A DNA stretch of 32,032 bases from an uncultured Acidobacteriia bacterium (GTDB taxonomy: Bacteria > Acidobacteriota > Terriglobia > Bryobacterales > Bryobacteraceae): contig CAIYVZ010000110.1 of NCBI GenBank assembly GCA_903929755.1, positions 1-32,032 on the forward strand, written 5' to 3'. Made by a program: the position numbers and the translations under genes. This document shows positions 20,023 through 31,941 of this stretch, in pieces. The notes under the pieces are model-generated. The model was not told the origin of the DNA. It searched no databases and saw only the letters and a list, made by a program, of their open reading frames with translations. Within the stretch, counting starts at the first letter, position 1. Each line of letters begins with the position of its first letter.

Positions 20023-20112
20023 GGTGAGGTGGCAGAGTGGTCGAATGCGGCGGTCTCGAAAACCGTTGAACCTTTACGGGTTCCGTGAGTTCGAATCTCA
20101 CCCTCACCGCCA
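20023..20112 (+). tRNA. tRNA-Ser (anticodon CGA)
   Basis: The acceptor arms are GGTGAGG (20023-20029) and CCTCACC (20102-20108), followed by discriminator G and encoded CCA. The anticodon stem CGGT/ACCG encloses loop CTCGAAA with anticodon CGA, which reads UCG. The long variable arm GAACC-TTTAC-GGGTTC is diagnostic of serine tRNA. The tRNA sits at the boundary between the dense chromosomal region and the signalling cluster, a common place for insertions, but I found no attachment-site duplication of its 3' end. Confidence 0.97.
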
Positions 20113-20292
20113 TTTTATTTTCAACAGCTTATAGGCAAGATCTGTTTTCAGCGCGCAATGCTGATCAGATACTTCAATTGTGTGGCGATTCAGGTGTGCA
20201 CACTTGCAGAACTGACAGGCGCGTTGAATGGGGCGCCGGCACCGTCGTCCGGGTGCGACGCAGGGTGTGTGTGGACTAATGAGATGTGACCG

Positions 20293-20366: not shown

Positions 20367-21704
20367 TTGGTTCAGTTAGTCGTGATCGATGATGATGAAC
20401 AGGTTACGCAGTTTGTCGCCAGTGTTCTCCCCCGCGCGGAACTCAATATCACGACCTGCAACGATCCCGAAGCCGGGTGGGAACTCATCCGTCAGATCAG
20501 GCCCGACATTGTAATGCTGGACGAAGTAATGCCCGGTCTCAGCGGCATTGAGCTCCTCGGACGCATCGTCAACTGGGATCCGGCGATTGAGGTGGCGCTT
20601 CTCACCGGCCAGGCCAATACCGACCTTGCCGTCGAGGCTATCCAAAAAGGCGCCTCAGCCTTCCTCACTAAGCCGATTACCCCTGCCAAACTGAGGGACA
20701 GTCTGGAACCTCTGATCAACGCGGCCGCGCAACGCAGGCACGCCACCACGCTCGAAGGAGAGCTGTTAGACAGCAGCAAGTTCAGCAATATGGTGGGACG
20801 CAGCGCCCCGATGCTGGACGTGTTTTCGATGATCCAGCGAATCGCCCCTCACTTCCGGTCGGTGCTGGTCAGCGGGGCCACGGGGACGGGAAAGGAACTC
20901 GTCGCCAGAGCGCTTCATCAAATGTCGGAGATCCGGCACAAGCCTTTCGTTGTGTGCAACTGCGCGGCGATTGTGGAGTCGCTGTTTGAGAGCGAACTCT
21001 TCGGGCACGTTCGCGGCTCGTTTACGGGCGCGACAAGCGACCGAGCAGGCCTCTTCGAGGCGGCTGACGGCGGCACCTTGTTCCTGGACGAAATCGGAGA
21101 GGTCCCCCTCAAGATGCAGGCAAAGTTCCTGCGCGTGCTTCAGAACGGCGAGGTTCAGAGAGTGGGCTCAAACGCCGTCCGACAGGTGAAAGTTCGGGTG
21201 GTGGCTGCGACCAACCGGGACCTGCGGAAAATGGTGAAAGAGAAAGAGTTTCGGGAGGACCTCTATTATCGGTTGTCCATGCTTCAGATTCAGGTTCCTA
21301 CTCTGGCGGAGCGAAAAGAGGACCTCCCGCTCCTCATCCGGTATTTCGTGACGCAGTTTTCAGCGCAACTTGGGAAGAAAGTGAGGGGAACCAGCCGGCG
21401 AGTTCAAGCGCTGCTTTCCCGTTACCACTGGCCGGGCAACATCAGGGAGCTTGAGAATGTGATCGGCCATGCCTGCACAATGACCGGCGGTGAAGTGATC
21501 GATGTCGCCGACTTGCCGGCGCACGTTCGTTCCGGGGATTCCAGAGACGGCACTGACGCCACCATGACCCTGGCTGAGGTGGAAAGACGCCATGTCGATT
21601 ACATCTACGAGCAGGCTGGGCGTAACAAGCAACTGGCCTCGGAGATCCTGGGTATCAGCCGGGCGACGCTTTACCGCTTTCTGGGGAAAAAGCAGGAGGA
21701 GTAG
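20367..21704 (+). CDS. Sigma54-dependent NtrC-family response regulator
   Basis: The 445-residue protein has a receiver (acidic pocket DDD at 8-10, phospho-acceptor Asp52 in VMLDEVMPG, Thr80, Lys102), an AAA+ domain (Walker A GATGTGKE at 170-177, Walker B LFLDEIGE) and a C-terminal Fis-type helix-turn-helix ([19 protein letters not shown]). The sigma54-contacting loop is GSFTGA rather than GAFTGA (217-222). Such proteins bind upstream sites and use ATP to open sigma54 promoters when phosphorylated. TTG 20367, with GAGG eight bases upstream, puts the receiver start where the family has it; the longer GTG 20286 reading adds 27 unrelated residues. It is convergent with the PAS kinase, its most obvious partner. 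Confidence 0.93.
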
Positions 21705-21790
21705 GTCCTCCGAGACCGCTCAAATGTTACTCGCCGGGCATACGCGCACGCAGCCGGTGGTTCCGTTTTCGTCGATTCAAGCCGCCGCGA

Positions 21791-24148
21791 TTACTCAGTG
21801 ACTGCGGGAGCTACTTTGCCGTTATCCAGAACCTGGCGAATCTTCAGTGCGAGAGCGCCGGGGCTAAAGGGTTTTTGCACGAAGGTAAGGCCAGCCTCCA
21901 GAAGGCCGCGCTCGGCAATCACCTCCGCCGTGTAGCCGGAAAGGAAGATGACTTTCATTTCCGGCCTCAAAACGAGCAGCCGCTCAAAAATCATTTTGCC
22001 ATTCATTCCGGGAAGAACCACGTCCGTCAACAGCAGATGAATCGGGCCCGGGTGACGCGCGGCCAACTGAATGGCCTGTTCACCATCCGCTGCGGTGAGG
22101 ACCGTGTACCCCAGCTTCCCCAGCACCGTGCGGGTGAAGCTCCGCACCGATTCCTGATCTTCGGCGAGGAGTATCGTTTCTCCTCCTTCGTACGCTTCCG
22201 GGCCGGGTGTGGGCGCGGTTTGCGCAAGCGGAAGAGCGGCCGGGATTTGAGGGAAGTAAAGCGTGAATAACGTACCCTTCCCGACCTCACTTCGTACTGT
22301 TATGCAGCCACCACACTGCCTGACGATGCCGGAGACCGTTGCCAGGCCCAGGCCCGTTCCCTTCCCCACAGCTTTCGTGGTAAAGAGTGGCTCAAACATG
22401 TGCCGGAGGGTGGCATCGTCCATGCCGAGGCCCGTATCTTCTACTGTCAGCAGGGCAAAATGACCAGCTGACGCTTCAGGAGCAAGGGCAGCGGCGGCGG
22501 CTTCGCTGAGCGTCAAATCCGCCGTGCCAATGTGCAGTTTTCCGCCGTCAGGCATCGCGTCGCGGGAGTTTACAACCAGATTCATGATGACCTGATGAAT
22601 CTGGCCGTGGTCCGCGCGGATGGGGGTGCCCGACGCCTGAAGACTCACAACAAGCTCCACGTCCGCGCCAATCAGCCGCCGAAGCAGCGGGGCAGCGGCC
22701 CGAATGGTCTGGTTTAAATCGAGAGCCACGCGCTCCACGATCTGTTTCCGGCTAATGGCCAGGAGTTGCCTGGTAAGATCAGCCGCCTGCGCCCCTGCCA
22801 TGCTCATTTCCCCTAAGTACCCGGCCAGGGGATCTGCAGGGTCCAGCCCATCCAGAATAAGACTGCAATAGCCGTTGATGACCGTCAGCAGGTTATTGAA
22901 ATCGTGGGCGAGGCCACCCGCCAGGCGGCCAATGTTCTCCATCTTCTGGGCGTGGAGGAGGTGCTCCTCCAATGCGGCATTTTCGACAGCAATACGTTTC
23001 TGTTCCGTTATATCGCGCTGTACGCAAACCACGACCTGGCCCTCAACACGGTGCATCAGGCCGGTAGCGGCGATGCTGCACCAGAATCGTTCTCCATTCT
23101 TCCTGACGCTCCGAATTTCACCAGACCATATTCCTCCCTTCCGGACAGCGGCAATTATCTTCGCCGCCCGGAGTTCCGGTACCTCCTCAACGGGCGAATA
23201 CAGGGTGGAGACAGGCAGGCCGAGCAATTCCGTCAGGGAATAACCGAACAGGACCTCTGTCTGCGAGTCGGCATGAACAATGACACCATCTTCCGCCCGG
23301 ACCAGGAGCACAGCGTCCCTCATCGCATGCATGATCTCCGTATCGAGGCGCAGCGTTTCTTCAATGCGTTCGCGCTCCGTTACGTCCACCGCCATGCTCA
23401 GGGCGAGATTTCTGCCGTCCGGGATCGCCCCGAGCGGCGCAGCGTAAAACTCCCAGCTTCGTGTATCTCCGGTCCGGGTGCGGACGATGAGCGTTCCCTG
23501 GGCAACGCTCTGGTTAACCACTTGGGGTGACCGGAAGACGCGCCGCATCATCTCGTTTACGGAAGCCAAGCGGTCGCCGATGGCGAGCCGCGTCCAGGCC
23601 TCAATAGTTGGAATGTCGCCAAGAGAATAACCGGAGATCCCCGTCCATGAGTCGCTGATGGCCAGCACCGCTCCATCATCCGCATACAGCATGAGCGGGA
23701 AGGTCGCATTCGATACGACCTTCCGGAATCGCTCTTCGCTCAGGCGCAGTTCCTCGTCGGCCAGAATTCGCCCGGTCGTATCCGAAATAATTCCATGCCA
23801 GAGAGTGCTTCCGTCATCCAGTCGCTCCGGGTGAGCCTGCGCCGCGCGCCACCGAAGGCCCTGACCTGGGAGGACTACTCTGAAGTCACAATTAAAGGGC
23901 GCGAGGGTTGTGGCCGAATCCCCCATCGCCGTAACGACGCGATAGTGGTCGTCGGGATGCAGCCTGCCAAATACGGGCGCGGCATCTTCCCGCACCTCCT
24001 CTGACGTCAACTCGAACATCTCCCAAATACCTGGGCTCGCGTACGGAAGAGAGGAACGCCCGTCGGGGCAAAGGCGAAGCTGATAGATCAAGCCGGGTAC
24101 CAGCCCGGCCAGGCTCGCCAGCAGATCCCGACCGTCGTAGCCCAACAC
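21791..24148 (-). CDS. Cytoplasmic triple-PAS hybrid histidine kinase with C-terminal receiver
   Basis: The 785-residue protein has no membrane segment. Three PAS-type domains occupy roughly residues 10-130, 140-260 and 270-385. A HisKA follows with phospho-acceptor His415 in [11 protein letters not shown], the subgroup typical of soluble PAS kinases, then a HATPase (Asn523 in [33 protein letters not shown]). A receiver at about 657-775 has Asp709 in [10 protein letters not shown] and Lys759 in FVQKPF. GTG 24148 is strongly supported by AGGAGG eight bases upstream. It probably senses a cytosolic ligand or redox state and phosphorylates its own receiver and possibly the convergent NtrC-type regulator. 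Confidence 0.93.
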
Positions 24149-24832
24149 GAAAGATACCTCCTTTCACTTTTAACTCTACTCTGAATACGGGGCCGTGAAC
24201 GCCGTTTTCAGAAACGCGCGAAGGCAGGCATCGCGTATCAGCAAGCGGCGACAGCAGGCTGCGCGTTCGGCGGATCGCAACCGCGTCCCAGACTCCATCC
24301 GCGGCAGCCTGCGAGAGCGCAATAGTGTTCGTGGTCGAAGGCCGAATGCCAGCATGACGATATCCGGCCTCAGGCTCACGCTCCAGCCGAGGCAGACTGC
24401 CGGTACCGCCAGCCGGATCGCGAAAACGCTGGGCAGGAGTTATTGTTCCTGACGAGGACGGACTGTTCCGGGTAGAATCTCGTCGCGCCCAAAGACTGTA
24501 TGTTTCATTTTGGTACAAATATCGCAATTGGATCCGTTCAGGCTGCTGGTTCTGAAGGTGGACGTCCCGGTTTAGTGTTTTGTTATCAATATGATGGACG
24601 GGTTTCCCGGGGATCGGGCGCTTTGGCCTGCCGCCTGCTTTAGCAGAGGCCTACCGAGTCAGCCAGCAACAAGAGGCCCGAACCTGCGGCCAGCTAACCC
24701 AGGCGCGCAGCCGGTCAATACAAGAAGTAATAATGCGACCGTACCTATATGCCGGAACAGAGCGTTTCGAACGTTCCGCCTCCGGCCTTTTATTTTTCAG
24801 CCATCACGAACAACCAGGAAAGGAGTTTGGCT
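24149..24832. other. 684-base divergent intergenic region
   Basis: This gap lies between the PAS kinase and the zinc-ribbon gene, which point away from each other. I see no credible gene. It holds the kinase ribosome site next to 24148 and a sigma54-like element at 24510-24526 reading toward the zinc-ribbon gene. Open frames here are arginine-rich and look like non-coding GC-rich sequence. Confidence 0.5.
24510..24526 (+). promoter_or_regulatory. Candidate sigma54 promoter facing the zinc-ribbon gene
   Basis: TTGGTACAAATATCGCA matches the -24/-12 consensus TTGGCAC-N5-TTGCA at all but two consensus positions and keeps GG-N10-GC. It lies in an AT-richer patch than its surroundings. Transcription would start near 24537, leaving a leader of about 300 bases before the zinc-ribbon ATG. 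Confidence 0.45.
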
Positions 24833-25054
24833 ATGTGTCCAAATTGTGGATCCCCTCCCGCCTGGGTTAAGCGCAGGGCCGGATGGGAGCGGATCATGAT
24901 CGCGCTCACAGGCAAGAGAAAGTTTTTCTGCCGGTTATGTTACAGCAGTTATCGAGCTCCGGACCGCCGACGCGCCCCCCGTTTCGAAGGATCTCATGCA
25001 GGCATTGAAAGGCGCAGGCCTGAAGGTGGTCGGCGGTTTATCGCTCCACGCTAA
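24833..25054 (+). CDS. Zinc-ribbon mini-protein, 73 aa
   Basis: ATG 24833 has AAGGAG seven bases upstream, a very good start; longer in-frame readings lack one. The protein begins MCPNCGSPPAWVKRRAGWER and continues with an aromatic/basic helix to FFCRLCYSSYRAPDRRR. Cys2/Cys5 and Cys33/Cys36 form two CxxC knuckles, and the W-E-R helix between them is common in small bacterial zinc-ribbon proteins of unknown role. The last 30 residues are Arg/Gly-rich and unlike a folded domain, and another frame with its own ribosome site opens there. The protein may bind nucleic acid or a protein partner; function unknown. Confidence 0.65.
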   Translation: MCPNCGSPPAWVKRRAGWERIMIALTGKRKFFCRLCYSSYRAPDRRRAPRFEGSHAGIERRRPEGGRRFIAPR

Positions 25055-25208
25055 TCTGTCAGATGTGCGGTCGGCATTCCTGCAAACGGGAAGCCGGTCC
25101 GCAGGCCGCTTTCCCCAGCACGCACGTCAAGTCGTGGTCGATCCCTCTAATAACCAGGTAGTCCTCTCGCTCTCCTTTTCTGTTGTATCCGCTCCTGGTC
25201 GCGCGTGA
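24996..25208 (+). CDS. Possible 70-aa ORF overlapping the zinc-ribbon gene end
   Basis: ATG 24996 is preceded by GAAGGA five bases upstream and opens a 70-residue frame overlapping the zinc-ribbon gene by 59 bases in another frame. The product (MQALKGAGLKVVGGLSLHAN at its start) has a more protein-like composition than the zinc-ribbon tail it overlaps. I recognise no family. It could be a real overlapping gene, or the original tail of the zinc-ribbon protein displaced by a frameshift. Confidence 0.25.
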   Translation: MQALKGAGLKVVGGLSLHANLSDVRSAFLQTGSRSAGRFPQHARQVVVDPSNNQVVLSLSFSVVSAPGRA

Positions 25209-25478
25209 ACGTCGCGGTCCCTCCGGTGGCAGCAGACGGGCCGCTTTTCTCTTGCCGGATCGAGGCGAAGGTGGCACAGAGCCAGTTGCGTGACTGTCTT
25301 GTTTCAGGACGGGTTCTCAACTTTAGACGTCTACGAAGCCCCGGCTCGGCTTCGGCGCAGTGCAGGCAAAAGGGTAAGCAAATGGTCACAAAAATGCATT
25401 CAAAGAATCGACCTAATGCGAAAGCAGACGGATAAACCAGAAATGCACATGCAAACGAGGCATCAAAGGGAAACGGGC
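25055..25478. other. Region between the zinc-ribbon and HPt genes
   Basis: Apart from the uncertain 70-aa ORF, this 424-base stretch shows no gene I trust. The HPt frame is open back to 25290 and includes possible starts at 25416, 25443 and 25449, but residues before about 25479 look non-coding. A TGGCAC at 25272-25277 lacks the sigma54 spacing to its downstream TTGC. Confidence 0.4.
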
Positions 25479-25910
25479 GTGAATGCTGCAATGGGTGCAG
25501 CACTGCCGGTGCCCCACTGGGCGCTCCCCGGGGAGCTGGACTTCCTCCTTGATGAACCGAATACACTGCAGGACCTGCTGGTCACATTTGTGGTGGATGC
25601 CGAGATGCGTTCCCTCGCCCTGGTCTCCGCGCTGGAAGCCCAGGATTTCGAGACCATGAGATACAAGGGCCATTCGCTCAAAGGCTCCGCTGCCCAGATT
25701 GGGGCTCCTGCGCTCGCAGCTTTTGCGGGGAAGCTGGAGATATCCGCGAGTCTGCGTCAGGAAGGCTGTGGCGCGCTGGTCCGGCAGATGCTGGATGAAG
25801 TTCGGGTCGTCAGTTCTGAAATTCGGGAATTCGTCAGCGGGGGGCTGTGCTCCGGCCAGCCCGGCTTACTGGGATTCAGTGGTTGGCGAAATCAGCATAG
25901 TGCACGTTGA
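25479..25910 (+). CDS. Stand-alone HPt phosphotransfer protein
   Basis: The domain is unmistakable: FVVDAEMRSLALVSALEAQD, then the phospho-acceptor segment YKGHSLKGSAAQIGA (His65 in this numbering) and LAAFAGKLEISAS. HPt proteins relay phosphate between the receiver of a hybrid kinase and a final response regulator. GTG 25479 with AAGGGA seven bases upstream is preferred (143 residues); ATG 25443 or 25416 lack ribosome sites. A short C-terminal tail after EIREFVSGG is not part of the domain. No kinase or DNA-binding module is fused. The neighbouring membrane hybrid kinase has two receivers and no HPt, so it is the natural donor. Confidence 0.88.
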   Translation: MNAAMGAALPVPHWALPGELDFLLDEPNTLQDLLVTFVVDAEMRSLALVSALEAQDFETMRYKGHSLKGSAAQIGAPALAAFAGKLEISASLRQEGCGALVRQMLDEVRVVSSEIREFVSGGLCSGQPGLLGFSGWRNQHSAR

Positions 25911-26227
25911 CGCAGACTGAGCCAAGACCATGGGAAACCAAGGTTGGGGGGCACGAATGACGGCACCGGGTCGAAGGTCCCGAGTGAGGGCGTAAATGAC
26001 CGAAGGAGCTTTTTCCAGGTTCTACTGCAGTAGCTTGTATCTGGCAAAAACCGGGGAAAAAGTCTATTGCGCCTTAAAGTGGGCGCATCATTTGTCAAAA
26101 CCAAAGTTGGCCCGCAATAACTTAATGTCGGACCGGTCGGAATCTGTGGGTTTTGGGACGGCGTCGGCATTGAAGGGGCCCGTGGCCATCCCGGCGCTCC
26201 ACGATCGGCAGGAGTTCGCCGATCAGG
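25911..26227. other. Gap containing the out-of-frame tail of the PAS-HisKA gene
   Basis: From about 26270 down to the TAA at 26122 on the minus strand, a frame one base away from the PAS-HisKA gene still encodes a kinase-like segment, VDVSDLIGELLPIVERR, before losing resemblance. The rest (25911-26121) shows no gene. A hairpin-capable TGCGCC/GGCGCA pair lies near 26069-26088. This is best seen as the decayed 3' part of the kinase gene. Confidence 0.5.
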
Positions 26228-26896
26228 TCACTGACATCGACTTTCTGTGCCTGGCCGACCTGCCAGCGGCCCCACGGCCATCAACTGACTGGCCAGGATT
26301 GCGGCGCGCGCCCCGGCCGTCCTGATTTCTTCAATGTACTCAACGCCGGGCCCGCTATTTTCAGATATCTCCAACAGCAGTTCCGCGTAGCCATTGATGA
26401 CAGTGAGCAAGTTGTTAAAATCATGGGCCACTCCAGCTGCCAACAGTGCTGCCGTCCTCAGTTTCTGGGCCTCAAGCAGATCGCGCTCCAGGCGCAGGTG
26501 CTCGGTGATGTCGCGCTTGATTGCCACGAAACCAGTCGTTTCACCGGAGGCTCCCAGGATCGGCGAGATTGTGGAGTCCGCCGCGTAGCAGGAACCGTCT
26601 TTCTTGCGGTTGATCAGGCTGCCGCGCCAGATGTTGCCGGCCAGCAGCGTACTCCATAGCTCTGCATAAACCTCCGGACTCTGCCTGTCGGATTTGAGGA
26701 TCCGGGCATTCTCTCCGTAGACTTCGTCCCGGGAATAGCCGGTGACTCTCTCAAATGCGGGATTGCAGTATTGAATCGCCCCAGCCCGATCCGTTATGAG
26801 TATCTGTTCCTCGGTATGCGCAACCGCGGTAACAAGACACGCCAGCTGGTTCGGTGCTTCGCTGGTTTTCATCTCTACTGTGGATTCGCTCGTCAT
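26228..26896 (-). CDS. PAS-HisKA protein lacking the ATPase domain (truncated kinase)
   Basis: The 222-residue product has one PAS domain (QILITDRAGAIQYCNPAFER to TTGFVAIKRDITE, residues 31-132) and a HisKA helix pair with His158 in [16 protein letters not shown]. It then ends shortly after LASQLM, where a normal kinase would continue into the HATPase. ATG 26896 is supported by AAGGA five bases upstream and by a 4-base ATGA overlap with the small exported protein; the longer open frame from 27406 is not family-like. The kinase-like continuation exists one frame away, suggesting an extra G in the GGGG run at 26270-26273 (minus strand), but even restored the ATPase is missing. It cannot autophosphorylate alone; it may be a pseudogene or a phospho-acceptor/dimerisation partner. 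Confidence 0.75.
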   Translation of the reverse strand: MTSESTVEMKTSEAPNQLACLVTAVAHTEEQILITDRAGAIQYCNPAFERVTGYSRDEVYGENARILKSDRQSPEVYAELWSTLLAGNIWRGSLINRKKDGSCYAADSTISPILGASGETTGFVAIKRDITEHLRLERDLLEAQKLRTAALLAAGVAHDFNNLLTVINGYAELLLEISENSGPGVEYIEEIRTAGARAAILASQLMAVGPLAGRPGTESRCQ

Positions 26897-27060
26897 CTGC
26901 GTCCTTCTTCGTAGGTGTTCAGCCATGCGCAGGACACGACGCCGAGTTGTGTGCAGCCGGCGGAGGAGTCGGAGTCGGCTGCGGCGTGGAGGACTCCGCT
27001 GAAACTCAGGAGGGAGAGCGAAAGGAACCAGGCGAGAAAAGAACGGGTTTTGACAGGCAT
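26893..27060 (-). CDS. Small exported peptide, 55 aa
   Basis: This gene is below the usual ORF cut-off. It starts at ATG 27060 and ends at TGA 26893-26895, overlapping the ATG of the PAS-HisKA gene as ATGA, so the two are probably translationally coupled. The N-terminus is a textbook signal peptide (MPVKTRSFLAWFLSLSLLSF, cleavage near LHAAA-D). The mature part is only about 27 residues, with two cysteines (Cys36, Cys44) that could form a disulfide and a C-terminal YEEGRR. I recognise no family. The ribosome site is weak. The coupling suggests a role tied to the sensor, for example a periplasmic accessory peptide, but that is inference. Confidence 0.55.
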   Translation of the reverse strand: MPVKTRSFLAWFLSLSLLSFSGVLHAAADSDSSAGCTQLGVVSCAWLNTYEEGRR

Positions 27061-27130
27061 GTCTTTGAGATCTGCCCGGGGAGCCGATATTGCGCTGCGT
27101 GGCGCTTACCCGAGGTATGCCGTTAAGAAA

Positions 27131-27146
27131 TGCAAGTGGATGGCCA
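27131..27146 (-). promoter_or_regulatory. Candidate sigma54 promoter for the small peptide/PAS-HisKA pair
   Basis: Read on the minus strand, TGGCCATCCACTTGCA has a perfect -12 TTGCA, a partial -24 (TGGCCA for TGGCAC) and exact GG-N10-GC spacing. Transcription would start near 27120, giving a 60-base leader before ATG 27060. Confidence 0.4.
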
Positions 27147-27385
27147 CTGTCGCCGGGGCCAGGACAGCCGTTCAACGCGGAGAGTTTCAGGAGCCTCGAA
27201 AAACGACAACAGGAAGCGCGAAGCCTGCGGATTTCTATTGGATTGAATAACTTCCAGACACGGAAGCCGCCCGAGGAGGAACGTATGCCTGTGCCGGAAT
27301 TGCCTGGACCGGCACCAACCGGCGGCGGGGGCACGAGCACAAACGCCTGCGAAGTGTTTCGTTTCCAGCCAGGTGCGGACGATAA

Positions 27386-27404
27386 GTGTTCCGTAACGGA
27401 ACAC
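27386..27404. promoter_or_regulatory. Perfect 19-base palindrome, candidate operator
   Basis: GTGTTCCGTAACGGAACAC has 8-base arms and a 3-base centre with no mismatch. It lies about 240 bases upstream of the sigma54-like element of the small peptide/PAS-HisKA pair, a distance compatible with an enhancer site for an NtrC-type activator. No T-tract follows, so it is unlikely to be a terminator. Confidence 0.45.
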
Positions 27405-27465
27405 AACAGAACAGGGGAACATTGCGAAATCCGTATCGGGATGGTCCGATTTGGTACGGCACCTG

Positions 27466-27597
27466 TTACTTTGTGGTGTTGCTCAATAGTTCCAGATCCA
27501 TCAGGATCAGGTCAAAGAGTTGCTGGCCAGCCTTCTCGAAAGCTTCATCGTTGAGTTGCCTGTGTTCCCTTTCGTCATCTAAGCCTGGATCATACGC
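27466..27597 (-). pseudogene. Remnant of a receiver domain
   Basis: A frame with no start of its own ends at 27466 and reads EAFEKAGQQLFDLILMDLEL, which is the stretch around the phospho-acceptor Asp of a receiver domain (normally [15 protein letters not shown]). It breaks off after the Asp strand, and only some 30 residues before it are plausible. It overlaps the last bases of the hybrid kinase in another frame. It is most simply a fragment of a further receiver lost by deletion; a chance resemblance is possible because the match is short. Confidence 0.35.
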
Positions 27598-29923
27598 CTG
27601 CAACCACTTCCTGCTGGGTCTCTTGCTGGCGGTGCATACCACTGCAGTAAAAGCTGAGCATTTCGAGGAGAGCGGTCGCGGGCACGGGTTTACTGAGGTA
27701 GTCGTCCATGCCCGCTTCGACGCAGCGCTCACGGTCCCCCCGCATGGCATGTGCGGTCAAGGCGATCACGGGAGTGTACTCACCCACACGCCTCTGGATT
27801 CTTCGAATTGCGTGAGTTGCCTCGAAACCATCCATCTCTGGCATCTGGATATCCATCAAAATGGCGTCAAAACGTGTGACCGTTGCCATTTGCACAGCTT
27901 CCTTTCCATTCCGGGCAACTGTCACCCTGTGCCCGGCTCTTTGCAGGATCGCGCCCGCAACCTTTTGATTCACCACATTGTCCTCAGCCAGGAGAATGTG
28001 CAAGTGAGTTCCGGCTTTGGGTTCCGCGTCCCCGGCCAAAGTCGCGGCCTCGGGTGATCTCACCCTGTTTCCGGACATCGCCTTAAGGATGGCCGTGCGA
28101 AGTTCATGGGGCCCCACCGGTTTTTTCAAATAGCCGACGATTCCCCGTTCGCGGCCACGTGCCAAATCTCCAGAATGTTCACCCGACGTTAGCATCACGA
28201 CGACATTCCTGGCCAGCCGCGAGGACGTACGAATTTCCTCTGCCATCTGGAAGCCGTCCATGTCTGGCAAATACATATCGGTGAGTACGACGTCGAAGGG
28301 CACACCCGATCGGTACGCGCCTTCGAGCACAAGCAAGGCTTCCCCGGCGCTGCCGGCAGCAACGGGTACCGCCCCCCAGAAACGAAGAAGGTCCATAAGG
28401 GCACCACGACTCGTCGGGTTGTCGTCCACAACAAGGATGGAGGTCCGCGGCAGGCGTTCCTCGTCGGCACTGGAACAGGAGGGAGCGCGTGTGGCAGGGC
28501 CGACATCCACTGCAAAAGAAAACATGCTGCCCGTACCTGGTTCACTGTGGACCGTGAGTTCTCCTCCCATCGCCTCCACGAGACGCGCCGAGATGGTCAG
28601 CCCCAGACCGGTACCTCCGTAGTGCCGCGTAGTGGACCCGTCGGCCTGCGAGAACGGCTGAAAGATCAGTTCCTGTTTATCCGGCGCTATACCGACGCCG
28701 GTATCCTTTATGGAGAAACGGAGGTTAATCCGGCCCAACTGACTCGATGAAACTCCGGCGTTGAGGGCTATCTCGCCGTTGTGGGTGAACTTAACTGCGT
28801 TCCCGAGCAGACTTATCAGGACCTGCCTGAACCGCGTTACATCCCCGAGGACAAATTCGGGAACGTCCGGCTCAACATCGAGAATCAGTTCGAGGCCCTT
28901 TTCGCGGGCACTGAAGGCGACTATCTGCAGCGTTTCCTTAAGGTGGTCGCGCAGATTAAAGGTGACCGGGTCCAGTTCCAGTTTGCCGGCCTCGATTTTT
29001 GAGAAATCCAAAATGTCGTTGATGACCTTGAGGAGGGTATCCGCCGAACTTTTCACCATATTCACAGAGTCCCGCTGTTGGGGTCCCAGATCGGTGTCGA
29101 GAAGGAGTTCCGTCATCCCGACGATGCCATTCATGGGAGTCCGGATCTCGTGACTCATGTTGGCCAAAAAATCGTTCCTGGTCTTATTGGCGGCTTCCGC
29201 CATTTCCTGGGCCGCCAACAATTCGGCGTTGATATCAAACACCTGGGCGGTATTGGGCACCGCGCACTGGGCTGTCCGTGTCGCAATATCCGCCAAATCC
29301 CGGGCGGCACGGAGGAAAGCTCGCTTCAGGACGGCGTGCAGGCTGGCCGTGAAGATGCTGGCCAGAATCAGACCAGCGAAGCAAAGTTGGACAGACCATG
29401 GGGCCAGCGGGCTCAGTCGCCGGTCGGATTTGAGGAGAAGAGTTCCAGGCGAGTCGCCCGGCAGCATCACGGCGCTCACGTCGTACAGGAGTTCCGGCCG
29501 AGCGTCGGAACCAGCTGAGCCCCCGCGAGGGTTGCCCTCCCTTTCAGGCCGCAGCCAGGTAGCGAACGCCGTGCCAGCTGAAGTGTAGATGCTGGCTTCA
29601 ACTACGTTTGGGTTTGATCGAAAGTCTGCAAGAAGTTTGGTTGCGGCTGCCGCGTTGTGAGGTGGAAGCGTGCGGACCTGTTCACGAACTGTTTGCGCCA
29701 AACGCTCAAGTTCAAATTTCCCCCGTTGGCCCAAGTCAAACGTGTTCCATCCCCAATAGCCGGTGAGCGCCAGCAGGATTGGCAGCGCAACCGCCGAACC
29801 GGTGAGCAGCCGAAGCTGCTGCCTGAGGGGAAGGGCACGCAATCTTTCGATAACTTCTGCGACGGGGGACCGGGGAAAAGTGACATCCCCGCCAGTAAGG
29901 GACCTGTCGTTCCGGATGAACAT
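27590..29923 (-). CDS. Membrane hybrid histidine kinase with two receivers
   Basis: The 777-residue protein has a cytosolic N-terminus, TM1 at about 43-60, a periplasmic sensor of about 115 residues resembling CHASE8 ([33 protein letters not shown]), and TM2 at about 178-199. A HisKA follows with His258 in [16 protein letters not shown], then a HATPase (Asn375, [19 protein letters not shown]). Two receivers complete it: Asp549 in [13 protein letters not shown] with Lys601, and Asp691 in [13 protein letters not shown] with Lys745. The architecture is BarA-like but lacks the terminal HPt, so an external HPt is needed; one is encoded 3.7 kb away. GAGG lies ten bases before ATG 29923, directly after a sigma54-like element. 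Confidence 0.95.
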
Positions 29924-29949
29924 GCTGCGAAGACCTCAAACGACGGTAG

Positions 29950-29965
29950 GCATTCGTGGTGCCAG
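29950..29965 (-). promoter_or_regulatory. Candidate sigma54 promoter of the hybrid kinase
   Basis: On the minus strand CTGGCACCACGAATGC gives a full -24 (CTGGCAC) and -12 ATGC with exact GG-N10-GC spacing. The predicted start near 29938 leaves a 15-base leader that just includes the GAGG ribosome site. This is the best sigma54-like match in the cluster. Confidence 0.5.
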
Positions 29966-30223: not shown

Positions 30224-31474
30224 TTAGGCGGCCCGTCGCGCATCCCAATAGTCCTCAAAGCGGTTGTTGAGATAGCAGCATCGCAAGGCGATGATGGCGT
30301 TGGCGCCGCGAAGGGTCCAGAACATGCCGGATTGTTTGAGACGTGCACCGATGACGGTCTTGCATCCGGCTTCAATGACGCCGGAGCCGACAAAGAGGTG
30401 CTGGCGGCGAAACTTCGGGTAGCGCATGCGCTCGGCGTTCTTCTCGAAGTAGTCTGCCTCGATACGAATCTGGTCGGCGACTTCCGGGGTGGCGGGATTT
30501 ATTGATCGAAGGGCGAGAACCAGCTTTTCGATTTTTCCCTTATCGAGTAGTCGTTTCTGGTGAACTGTGATCCAGGCTTTCTGGTTCATGTCGTCGTTGG
30601 GATGCAGTCGGCGCGCCACATCCCACAGGTGTTGGCGAGCGTGATACAGATCGACGATCTGGATGGCGCCGGGAAAATGCAGGTCGGCGTTATTCCAGAT
30701 CCACTCGGCGCCATCGCCGATAACGGCTTTCTTTACCGCGCGGTTCCAGCCGCGATTCCAGGCTTCCAGATAGAGTCGTTTACCGAACGCGTCGGCGTTC
30801 TCAATGGCCCCGGTGTAGGTGGTGGAATCGGGAGCGCGGATGGGGTAGCCCTCTTTGTCCCACGTGGTCTGGGTGAAGACGCATCCCAGCTTAACTTCCC
30901 GAGTGTGGGCGGGCCGCCCTTCCGTCTTGCCTTGCCGACCCACCGTCTCTTTCTTTACCACCGGTATCCCCGTTCCATCCATCTGGATATACAGGATCGG
31001 GATCGGCTCTCCCACGATCACCGGCAGTTCCAGTTGCACGGCTCGCTGCAACTCCCGGCGCTCGCCCTGAGCGATATGGCCTCCGATTGCTTCCGCCGTG
31101 CGCTCCACAGCTTTGGCCGTCACCTCCAGACCAGCCAGCAACTGTATCTGACGGCGTCCGTGGTCGAAGGGCGCTTCCGAACCGATCAGTGCGAGCATGC
31201 GCCGCACGCCAGGCGACAGTTCCAGCTTCTCAATATCGAGAGCGGCATCGGCGGGGAACTGCCCGTTATGGCATTGCGAACACAGGTACCAGGGGCGCAG
31301 GAACCCGATTTCACCGACTACGGTCAGCAAGTGTCGCGAACGCATTTCGCGGTAACGGGCTTTCTGCCCGCAGGGACAGGATATTTCCCGTTCTTCCGCT
31401 CCGGGAGGATTGCCCTGGAGCAACTGGCTCAACGCGGTCGCTCCGGCATGATGCATGGCTGCCCGCATCGCCAT
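30224..31474 (-). CDS. ISKra4-family transposase
   Basis: Characteristic segments include a Cys-rich zinc finger (CPCGQKARYRE, LCSQCHNGQ), ILYIQMDGTGIPVVKKE with the first catalytic Asp, TREVKLGCVFTQ, VIGDGAEWIWN with a second Asp, IQIVDLYHARQHLWDVAR and the final GSGVIEAGCKTVIGARLKQSGM with the catalytic Glu. From ATG 31474 the product is 416 residues. The frame stays open and family-like for 36 more codons upstream (EVEREISALLQLVFQERRKT and following) with no ATG, GTG or TTG, up to an A8 run, so the natural protein is probably a -1 frameshift fusion of about 572 residues with the upstream ORF. The element looks intact and may be active. Confidence 0.92.
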   Translation of the reverse strand: MAMRAAMHHAGATALSQLLQGNPPGAEEREISCPCGQKARYREMRSRHLLTVVGEIGFLRPWYLCSQCHNGQFPADAALDIEKLELSPGVRRMLALIGSEAPFDHGRRQIQLLAGLEVTAKAVERTAEAIGGHIAQGERRELQRAVQLELPVIVGEPIPILYIQMDGTGIPVVKKETVGRQGKTEGRPAHTREVKLGCVFTQTTWDKEGYPIRAPDSTTYTGAIENADAFGKRLYLEAWNRGWNRAVKKAVIGDGAEWIWNNADLHFPGAIQIVDLYHARQHLWDVARRLHPNDDMNQKAWITVHQKRLLDKGKIEKLVLALRSINPATPEVADQIRIEADYFEKNAERMRYPKFRRQHLFVGSGVIEAGCKTVIGARLKQSGMFWTLRGANAIIALRCCYLNNRFEDYWDARRAA

Positions 31475-31542
31475 CTCGACCGCTTCCAGATCCAGTTTGC
31501 CCGTCTTGCGCCGCTCCTGAAAGACGAGTTGGAGCAGCGCGC

Positions 31543-31941
31543 TTATTTCCCGTTCGACTTCCTTCCGGATCGTTTCCGCCGTTTTTTTTCCTGCAGCGTC
31601 AGCGTATCTTCGACCGGCCTTGCGCGGCAGATCCTTTCATTGACCTCAACCAGGTTCTGGCTCAGTTCCCGGAAGCGGTGAAACTCCGCCACTTCCTGCT
31701 GCGCCTTGCGCAAAGCCACAGGCGTGGCGAAGGTCTCGGTAACAGTCTTACCCCCGATCTTCCGCGTAAGCCGATGGAACGGGCCGTGTCCCGGATCGCC
31801 ATCTTTTCGGCAATGACAGCCGGGGGTTCCACAGCGCCCACCTGTTGTCGTGATTGAGCCCGATCGCATATCACCGAGTTGGCCGATCTTGCGTTGAATC
31901 TCGGAGCGTTCTGTTTCCAATGCCGGCAATGCAGTAATCAT
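31543..31941 (-). CDS. IS accessory protein (DUF6788-like), first frame of the IS
   Basis: The 132-residue protein starts at ATG 31941 with AGGAGG five bases upstream. It begins with a helical segment (ETERSEIQRKIGQLGD), carries a small Cys cluster (GGRCGTPGCHCRKDG) and a second helix (LRKAQQEVAEFHRFRELSQN), and ends in a lysine/arginine-rich tail. This arrangement is seen before ISKra4 transposases. Its last 12 codons, after the A8 run at 31582-31589, are probably the unshifted alternative ending; slippage there would carry ribosomes into the transposase frame. The role is likely DNA binding or regulation of transposition. Confidence 0.8.
   Translation of the reverse strand: MITALPALETERSEIQRKIGQLGDMRSGSITTTGGRCGTPGCHCRKDGDPGHGPFHRLTRKIGGKTVTETFATPVALRKAQQEVAEFHRFRELSQNLVEVNERICRARPVEDTLTLQEKKRRKRSGRKSNGK
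31582..31589 (-). other. A8 slippery sequence for -1 frameshifting
   Basis: In frame the codons are GAA AAA AAA CGG, giving the heptamer A-AAA-AAA. A -1 slip continues as ACG GCG GAA and leads without a stop into the transposase. The run is exactly where the two frames must join. Confidence 0.7.

Follow-up and report, generated by a model that had tools for sequence, protein, structure and literature searches.

The 32,032-nucleotide stretch of DNA analyzed here (the window) is one entire contig (C110) of the 6.86 Mb, 97.9% complete genome of an uncultured Acidobacteriia bacterium of the family Bryobacteraceae, and it carries, behind a tRNA-Ser gene, a cluster of signaling genes for an NtrC-type sigma-54 activator, two hybrid histidine kinases and a stand-alone histidine phosphotransfer (HPt) protein. 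We tentatively read this cluster as a lineage-specific signaling set in variable DNA, which may work in the manner of ShkA-ShpA-TacA or LuxQ-LuxU-LuxO. In this proposal, a membrane-bound hybrid kinase would autophosphorylate and move the phosphoryl group on to the second of its receivers; as the kinase itself lacks an HPt, the stand-alone HPt would take over from there. The likeliest local end receiver of the HPt phosphoryl group would be the NtrC-type activator, which would then open sigma-54 promoters, and the soluble PAS kinase beside it would provide a second, direct input to NtrC. Judged from the sequence, the best-supported of these steps is that from the membrane kinase to the HPt, which is probable; to direct input from the PAS kinase we give somewhat less than an even chance, and transfer from the HPt to NtrC is plausible only, and rather doubtful.

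An earlier note on this DNA, made from its letters, had described most of these genes, and Pfam confirms that the NtrC-type activator, the PAS hybrid kinase, the HPt and the two-receiver kinase are real and were correctly placed. The activator (20367-21704, plus strand, TTG start) has the make-up of an NtrC-family sigma-54 activator, with a receiver, a sigma-54 AAA+ domain, a Fis-type helix-turn-helix domain and a GAFTGA-type loop that is translated as GSFTGA. In each of the hybrid kinases, a single chain unites a phosphoacceptor domain, an ATPase domain and one or two receivers. The soluble one (21791-24148, minus strand; Pfam and our own domain models) has the order PAS-PAS-PAS-HisKA-HATPase-REC and zero hydrophobic stretches by hydropathy; its HisKA domain, with HDFNN present, scores 25.8 bits, slightly below the Pfam cut-off of 26.9. 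The other (27590-29923, minus strand; Pfam and hydropathy) has the order HisKA-HATPase-REC-REC with no HPt, and two hydrophobic stretches beginning near residues 37 and 173, and is therefore a membrane protein; it also has a CHASE8-like stretch that falls below the cut-off. The HPt protein (25479-25910, plus strand, 143 amino acids) matches PF01627 with an E-value of 3.2e-11, carries a phosphorylatable histidine in its GHSLKG site and has no other known domain. In all, four of the five signaling frames are full length with the expected domains (Pfam). Of 33 HisKA matches found across the genome, three fall in the cluster (one of them in a broken gene); nowhere else in that list do three occur within 10 kb. 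Alignment-free structure models were too poor for use, with a mean pLDDT of 39.6 for the HPt and 43.6 for the sensor region.

A relay from the membrane kinase through the HPt to a receiver, as the earlier note had proposed, is favored by the HPt being the sole stand-alone one, by the frequent pairing of HPts with hybrid kinases, and by the gene content of genome G158; it is weakened by the rarity of HPts near this NtrC subfamily, by the absence of the cluster from the same site in relatives, and by the breakage of one protein. Four PF01627 matches were found in the genome: two CheA-like frames with an HPt and an ATPase domain, the end of a hybrid kinase on contig C104, and the window HPt, which is the only one found to stand alone. 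Stand-alone HPts are described as typically amounting to less than 1% of such proteins in prokaryotes, and signaling genes as clustering (PMC4558063). Among relatives, pairing of HPts with hybrid kinases is common, because, of 29 HPt matches, 18 form part of a hybrid kinase and 3 lie beside one; one more is joined to a receiver in a 582-amino-acid frame, and 7 have no hybrid kinase in flanks of up to 1.5 kb. Nearest to the window HPt among 79 HPt domains were a free 124-amino-acid one of G044, followed by hybrid-kinase ends of G010 and G033, a free one of G004 and one of G015. The idea that the HPt is a detached end of the membrane kinase found no footing, the two lying on opposite strands with a gene between them. 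As to the donor, the membrane kinase is slightly favored over the PAS kinase, because a FLSGY motif is present in the receiver of the PAS kinase only and absent from both membrane kinase receivers. An FxSGY-type motif has been described for CckA receivers, where its role is called unresolved (PMC9981736), and ChpT, the partner of CckA, is reported to resemble histidine kinases (PMC3433190).

The sole recurrence that we found of the gene set named in the earlier note is in G158, a genome of another genus, in which a single contig holds within ~12 kb an NtrC-type activator (56% identical to that of the window), a PAS hybrid kinase (47% over 444 residues), an HK-REC-REC kinase (47% over 544) and an HPt frame, besides one PAS kinase. 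The HPt frame overlaps the end of the HK-REC-REC kinase and is recognized by the Pfam Hpt model (E 3.8e-11), with 30% identity (E 3e-4) to the window HPt. The HK-REC-REC kinase has near its start a PAS stretch that shares 45% identity with the one in the broken gene of the window.

The closest relatives, which are draft genomes in hundreds of contigs, such that genes may be linked across contig breaks, present a different picture. The best relatives of NtrC all belong to the same genus (72% identity in G016, 70% in G003, 64% in G006 and 59% in G012), those in G003 and G016 lying on a contig other than that of the tRNA site, and seven of 237 family genomes besides its own pass an E-value of 1e-152. 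For the PAS kinase, relatives in G008 and G003 reach 54-56% identity over the catalytic part. Among the matches listed for the membrane kinase, the best has 57% identity over residues 233-761 and comes from another genus, and the earliest match start is residue 171; a viral origin of this kinase was considered and dropped, as six peptide patterns found no relative in viral contigs. The best relative of the HPt has 36% identity among 60 relatives searched, and six peptide patterns, a search that detects close relatives only, found none in 84,980 species genomes. A conserved operon within the genus was not found in searches of these drafts with the cluster proteins. Conservation of gene order, which the earlier note had suggested as a check, is accordingly seen only in part: the set is absent as a unit from the closest relatives, and G158 holds its parts within ~12 kb. 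The same holds for scattering of the genes in relatives, which it had named as a sign against its proposal, since the G003 draft has its relatives of NtrC and of the PAS kinase on separate contigs and the parts lie together in G158.

We then ran domain models, derived from window proteins and relatives of these, on the neighborhoods (flanks of up to 8 kb) of 45 NtrC-subfamily loci and of 40 loci of other NtrC-type regulators. The 45 loci comprise 42 full-length rows with at least 48% identity, being all such rows listed apart from the window's own, and 3 from the family-genome search; partial rows that begin near residue 117-137 were excluded, and the 40 controls were chosen from the next rows (37-43% identity), several of which were skipped (for example G058:C78 and G016:C595). 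As contig ends clip the flanks (13.0 and 13.3 kb in total on average) and relatedness makes the loci non-independent, the p-values given here are rough. A hybrid kinase was found near 22/45 subfamily loci compared with 3/40 controls (Fisher p 3e-5), and an HK-REC-REC kinase near 6/45 compared with 0/40 (p 0.027). Kinases of any kind were more frequent near the controls (40/40, versus 37/45; p 0.006), as were kinases within 1 kb (all 40 controls, versus 34 of the 45). An HPt was found near just 2/45 subfamily loci, namely in G006 (fused, ~6 kb off) and G158, and near 1/40 controls (p 1.0). Because the groups differ in hybrid kinases (22 versus 3) but not in HPts (2 versus 1), the NtrC subfamily tends toward hybrid kinases rather than HPts. 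As an aside, GSFTGA replaces GAFTGA in 21 of 51 sigma-54-domain frames outside the control loci (a count that takes in duplicates and other paralogues) and in 2 of 41 inside them.

These counts also speak for an explanation in which the cluster holds two independent neighbors: the PAS hybrid kinase would signal to NtrC directly, and the membrane kinase and the HPt would feed a receiver elsewhere, or the HPt would be a carrier shared by several HPt-less hybrid kinases. A second HPt-less hybrid kinase with two receivers is indeed encoded in the genome, on contig C114, and the solved sequence closest to the HPt is PDB 7c1i (E 8.8e-10), listed merely as 'Histidine kinase', which we take to be the shared carrier HptB of Pseudomonas. 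In G205 and G215, moreover, a short HPt is found on the contig of the related membrane kinase, yet ~148 and 59 kb off. On the other hand, all parts lie close together in G158, and a mid-point-rooted FastTree phylogeny of 162 DHp-ATPase segments, in which many supports are weak, gives no sign of the window PAS kinase as an old partner of NtrC: the wider clade of 41 around it holds 4 of 39 segments from subfamily loci, compared with 12 of 46 from control loci. A shared history of NtrC and the PAS kinase was likewise set aside, as the nearest kinases, in G008 and G003, lie within stretches of 15 and 12 kb without a sigma-54 activator. We regard two independent neighbors as having a real chance of being correct, though short of an even one.

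The fifth signaling gene, presented as a PAS-HisKA protein in the earlier note, is broken and lacks ATPase and receiver domains (Pfam and domain models), and so is no hybrid histidine kinase. Its open frame spans 26228-27406 with a probable start near 26899, giving a PAS-DHp kinase remnant (26228-26899, minus strand) in which the frame is lost past the DHp domain, at ~26276. When the remnant is aligned to 58 matches elsewhere, in frames of 226-1474 amino acids, the alignment stops at query residue 208-211 in 45, elsewhere within 204-217 in 4, and earlier, at 139-177, in 9. A phosphoacceptor-class model built from 31 sequences matches with positions 3-76 in one frame and, immediately adjoining, with positions 77-102 in the following one; taken alone this second match is weak (E 0.89), yet it is positioned exactly as expected. 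An assembly error could lie behind the loss of frame. For the missing ATPase domain, of which none is found in the six frames of 25900-26950, such an error is hard to credit, because just 317 bases separate the broken frame from the HPt gene. We infer that the gene is a dead remnant outside the relay. Alternatively, the truncated protein, which keeps its phosphoacceptor histidine and DHp helices, might be alive, as a PAS-controlled ChpT-like phosphotransfer protein serving the CckA-like receiver of the neighboring PAS kinase in parallel to the HPt branch, in which case the cluster would hold two kinds of phosphate carrier; to us this appears very improbable.

The cluster occupies what looks like a variable site behind a tRNA. 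The tRNA-Ser (CGA) gene (20023-20112, plus strand; ARAGORN, Rfam) forms with its 3' end the left boundary of the variable DNA: DNA alignments to G003, G008 and G016 end at window positions 20120, 20119 and 20116, at most 8 bases past the tRNA end at 20112, as expected for a tRNA-anchored island. To the left, these three relatives share the tRNA-Ser, a carboxyltransferase (96, 94 and 92% identical, respectively) and its neighboring frame, which is presumably PQQ-dehydrogenase-like. Past the tRNA, where 6.0, 5.7 and 1.7 kb were compared with 11.9 kb of the window, no common frame of at least 100 amino acids was found at E 1e-5 among the four genomes, each of which carries different DNA there (L155, L156 and L157 in the relatives). 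No second copy of the 26-base tRNA end was found in the window with up to 3 mismatches, and no integrase among the frames scanned for families, a scan that covered part of the window frames; the contig ends at 32032. On the right side of the cluster lies a transposase of the ISKra4 family (30224-31474, minus strand; NF033572, 292 bits, cut-off 205), and upstream of it, at the contig end, a DUF6788 frame (the two spanning 30224-31941). The claim that the cluster holds little else thus needs qualifying, as this transposase lies alongside and a 73-amino-acid zinc-ribbon-like frame inside.

Such a location raises the question of whether the cluster is a decaying island, in which leftover signaling genes, flanked by a tRNA and an insertion sequence, have stayed functional only in part. 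The broken PAS-DHp gene, the ISKra4 element at the contig end, the end of shared DNA at the tRNA in three relatives and the isolation of the HPt, with no relative above 36% identity, would all agree with decay. The intactness of four of the five signaling frames argues the other way, and we find this explanation unlikely.

Matching sigma-54 promoters in the cluster, as reported in the earlier note, were not borne out. With up to 2 mismatches, TGGCAC-N5-TTGCW occurs at 18 sites in the window, compared with a shuffle mean of 16.5 and at least 18 in 41 of 100 shuffles; sites are thus at chance level, because shuffles yield comparable counts. We also applied a weighted score of our own to the six upstream segments of the cluster, which hold 4 sites at a threshold of 12, a number reached by 1 of 400 shuffles, 1 at 12.5 (129 of 400) and 1 at 13 (45 of 400). 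Segments that reach a score of 12 made up 3 of the 6 in the cluster and 3 of the 18 upstream of other window genes (12.1, 12.5 and 12.5). One unproven candidate, TGGCACcacgaATGCC (29949-29964, minus strand), lies 26-41 bases upstream of the membrane kinase; it is the best of its segment, was matched or beaten by 29 of 1000 shuffles of that segment, and appears modestly better than the window background. The sigma-54 feedback loop of the earlier note is unsupported as such, and feedback onto the membrane kinase seems improbable.

Further evidence on the relay comes from genomes with related membrane kinases. A short HPt (in a frame below 200 amino acids) is present in all six compared (G205, G204, G215, G114, G213 and G251), these being six of the nine genomes with the best membrane-kinase relatives, with three left out; the related kinases in these six carry no HPt themselves. 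Frames of this size were found in none of G003, G008, G006 and G012, and G016 has only one, with an internal stop. Several observations nevertheless weigh against our proposal. The short-HPt sample is small and uneven, with four of the six genomes belonging to one genus (g78), whose short HPts are not near the kinase; five of the related kinases (L262-L266) have no HPt within the 15-16 kb surrounding them that was read, and the one of G251 has none in the 1.5 kb flanks read there. Short HPts also occur in the window's own genus (145 amino acids in G004, 136 in G018 and 124 in G017), as well as in G158, G101, G119 and G057. In the G003 draft, the NtrC and PAS-kinase relatives are split between contigs, and HPts are found in frames of at least 328 amino acids. 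Within the window, ~1.7 kb that includes the broken gene separates the HPt from the membrane kinase, which is encoded on the other strand, and the broken gene accounts for one of the five cluster proteins. The cluster is absent from the tRNA-Ser site in its three closest relatives (G003, G008 and G016), HPts are as rare near the NtrC subfamily as near the controls, and sigma-54 feedback depends on at most one modest site. Finally, chance neighbors are likelier in G158, because at 11.5 Mb that genome is large, and it contains 13 HPt matches.

The window's own genome also holds a fused version of the proposed relay. On its contig C104 (L267 5403-12038), a 716-amino-acid receiver-sigma-54 activator lies ~0.55 kb upstream of an HK-REC-REC-HPt hybrid kinase, and similar pairs are found in G003 and G008 (L393 and L396). 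Sigma-54 activators lie beside HPt-bearing hybrid kinases in 3 of 20 regions (G003:C42, G008:C608 and G008:C247), where 0.65 genes would be expected by density.

A possible output is suggested by the two closest NtrC relatives, downstream of which lie TadE/TadG-like pilus genes (Pfam; L149 2215-4537 on G016:C410 and L150 413-859 on G003:C228). The TadE-like genes are 63-67% identical between the two genomes and were found only there among 401 records, hinting at a pilus regulon for these NtrC relatives. No match to them was found in the window cluster, the part of the genome that the search covered. The zinc-ribbon-like frame inside the cluster (24833-25054, plus strand; CPNC...CRLC) has a single homologue outside its own genome in the same records, in G016 (L149 4714-4869), where it adjoins the closest NtrC relative.

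The wiring logic of a hybrid kinase, an HPt and a sigma-54 activator is already known; what is new is the lineage-specific cluster. ShpA is a stand-alone HPt, TacA is sigma-54 dependent, and LuxQ has one receiver. The Caulobacter ShkA-ShpA-TacA pathway is described as a hybrid kinase, a separate phosphotransferase and a terminal transcription activator (PMC7010744), and the cluster, as known from its genes, likewise has a hybrid kinase, a separate phosphotransfer protein and an activator. As described there, ShkA differs in having a central c-di-GMP-binding pseudo-receiver, whereas here the two-receiver kinase is membrane-bound and the soluble kinase has one receiver. In Vibrio, the hybrid kinases LuxN, LuxQ and CqsS are described as acting through one stand-alone HPt, LuxU, and a response regulator, LuxO, that acts with sigma-54 (PMC5394107); the cluster shares hybrid kinases, a single stand-alone HPt and a sigma-54 regulator with this system, but the curated cut-offs are unreached (17.2/140 bits for LuxU, 326.8/800 for LuxO and 323.5/1200 for LuxQ). 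The PAS hybrid kinase resembles that of CckA-ChpT-CtrA, in that CckA models lead its NCBIfam matches and the FxSGY motif is present in its receiver; its score, however, is 345.3 of the 1000 bits of the curated cut-off. A single stand-alone HPt for HPt-less hybrid kinases is also the arrangement of HptB of Pseudomonas, which has several hybrid kinases and an output that is not known to be a sigma-54 activator. ChpT differs from the window HPt in being a dimeric histidine-kinase-like phosphotransferase (PMC3433190) and not an HPt-domain protein.

In a thin search of the literature, we met no worked-out phosphorelay of this kind from Acidobacteriota. If our proposal is true, the cluster would give this phylum a candidate His-Asp-His-Asp relay that ends in a sigma-54 activator, and a tractable one, given that no second stand-alone HPt was found in the genome.

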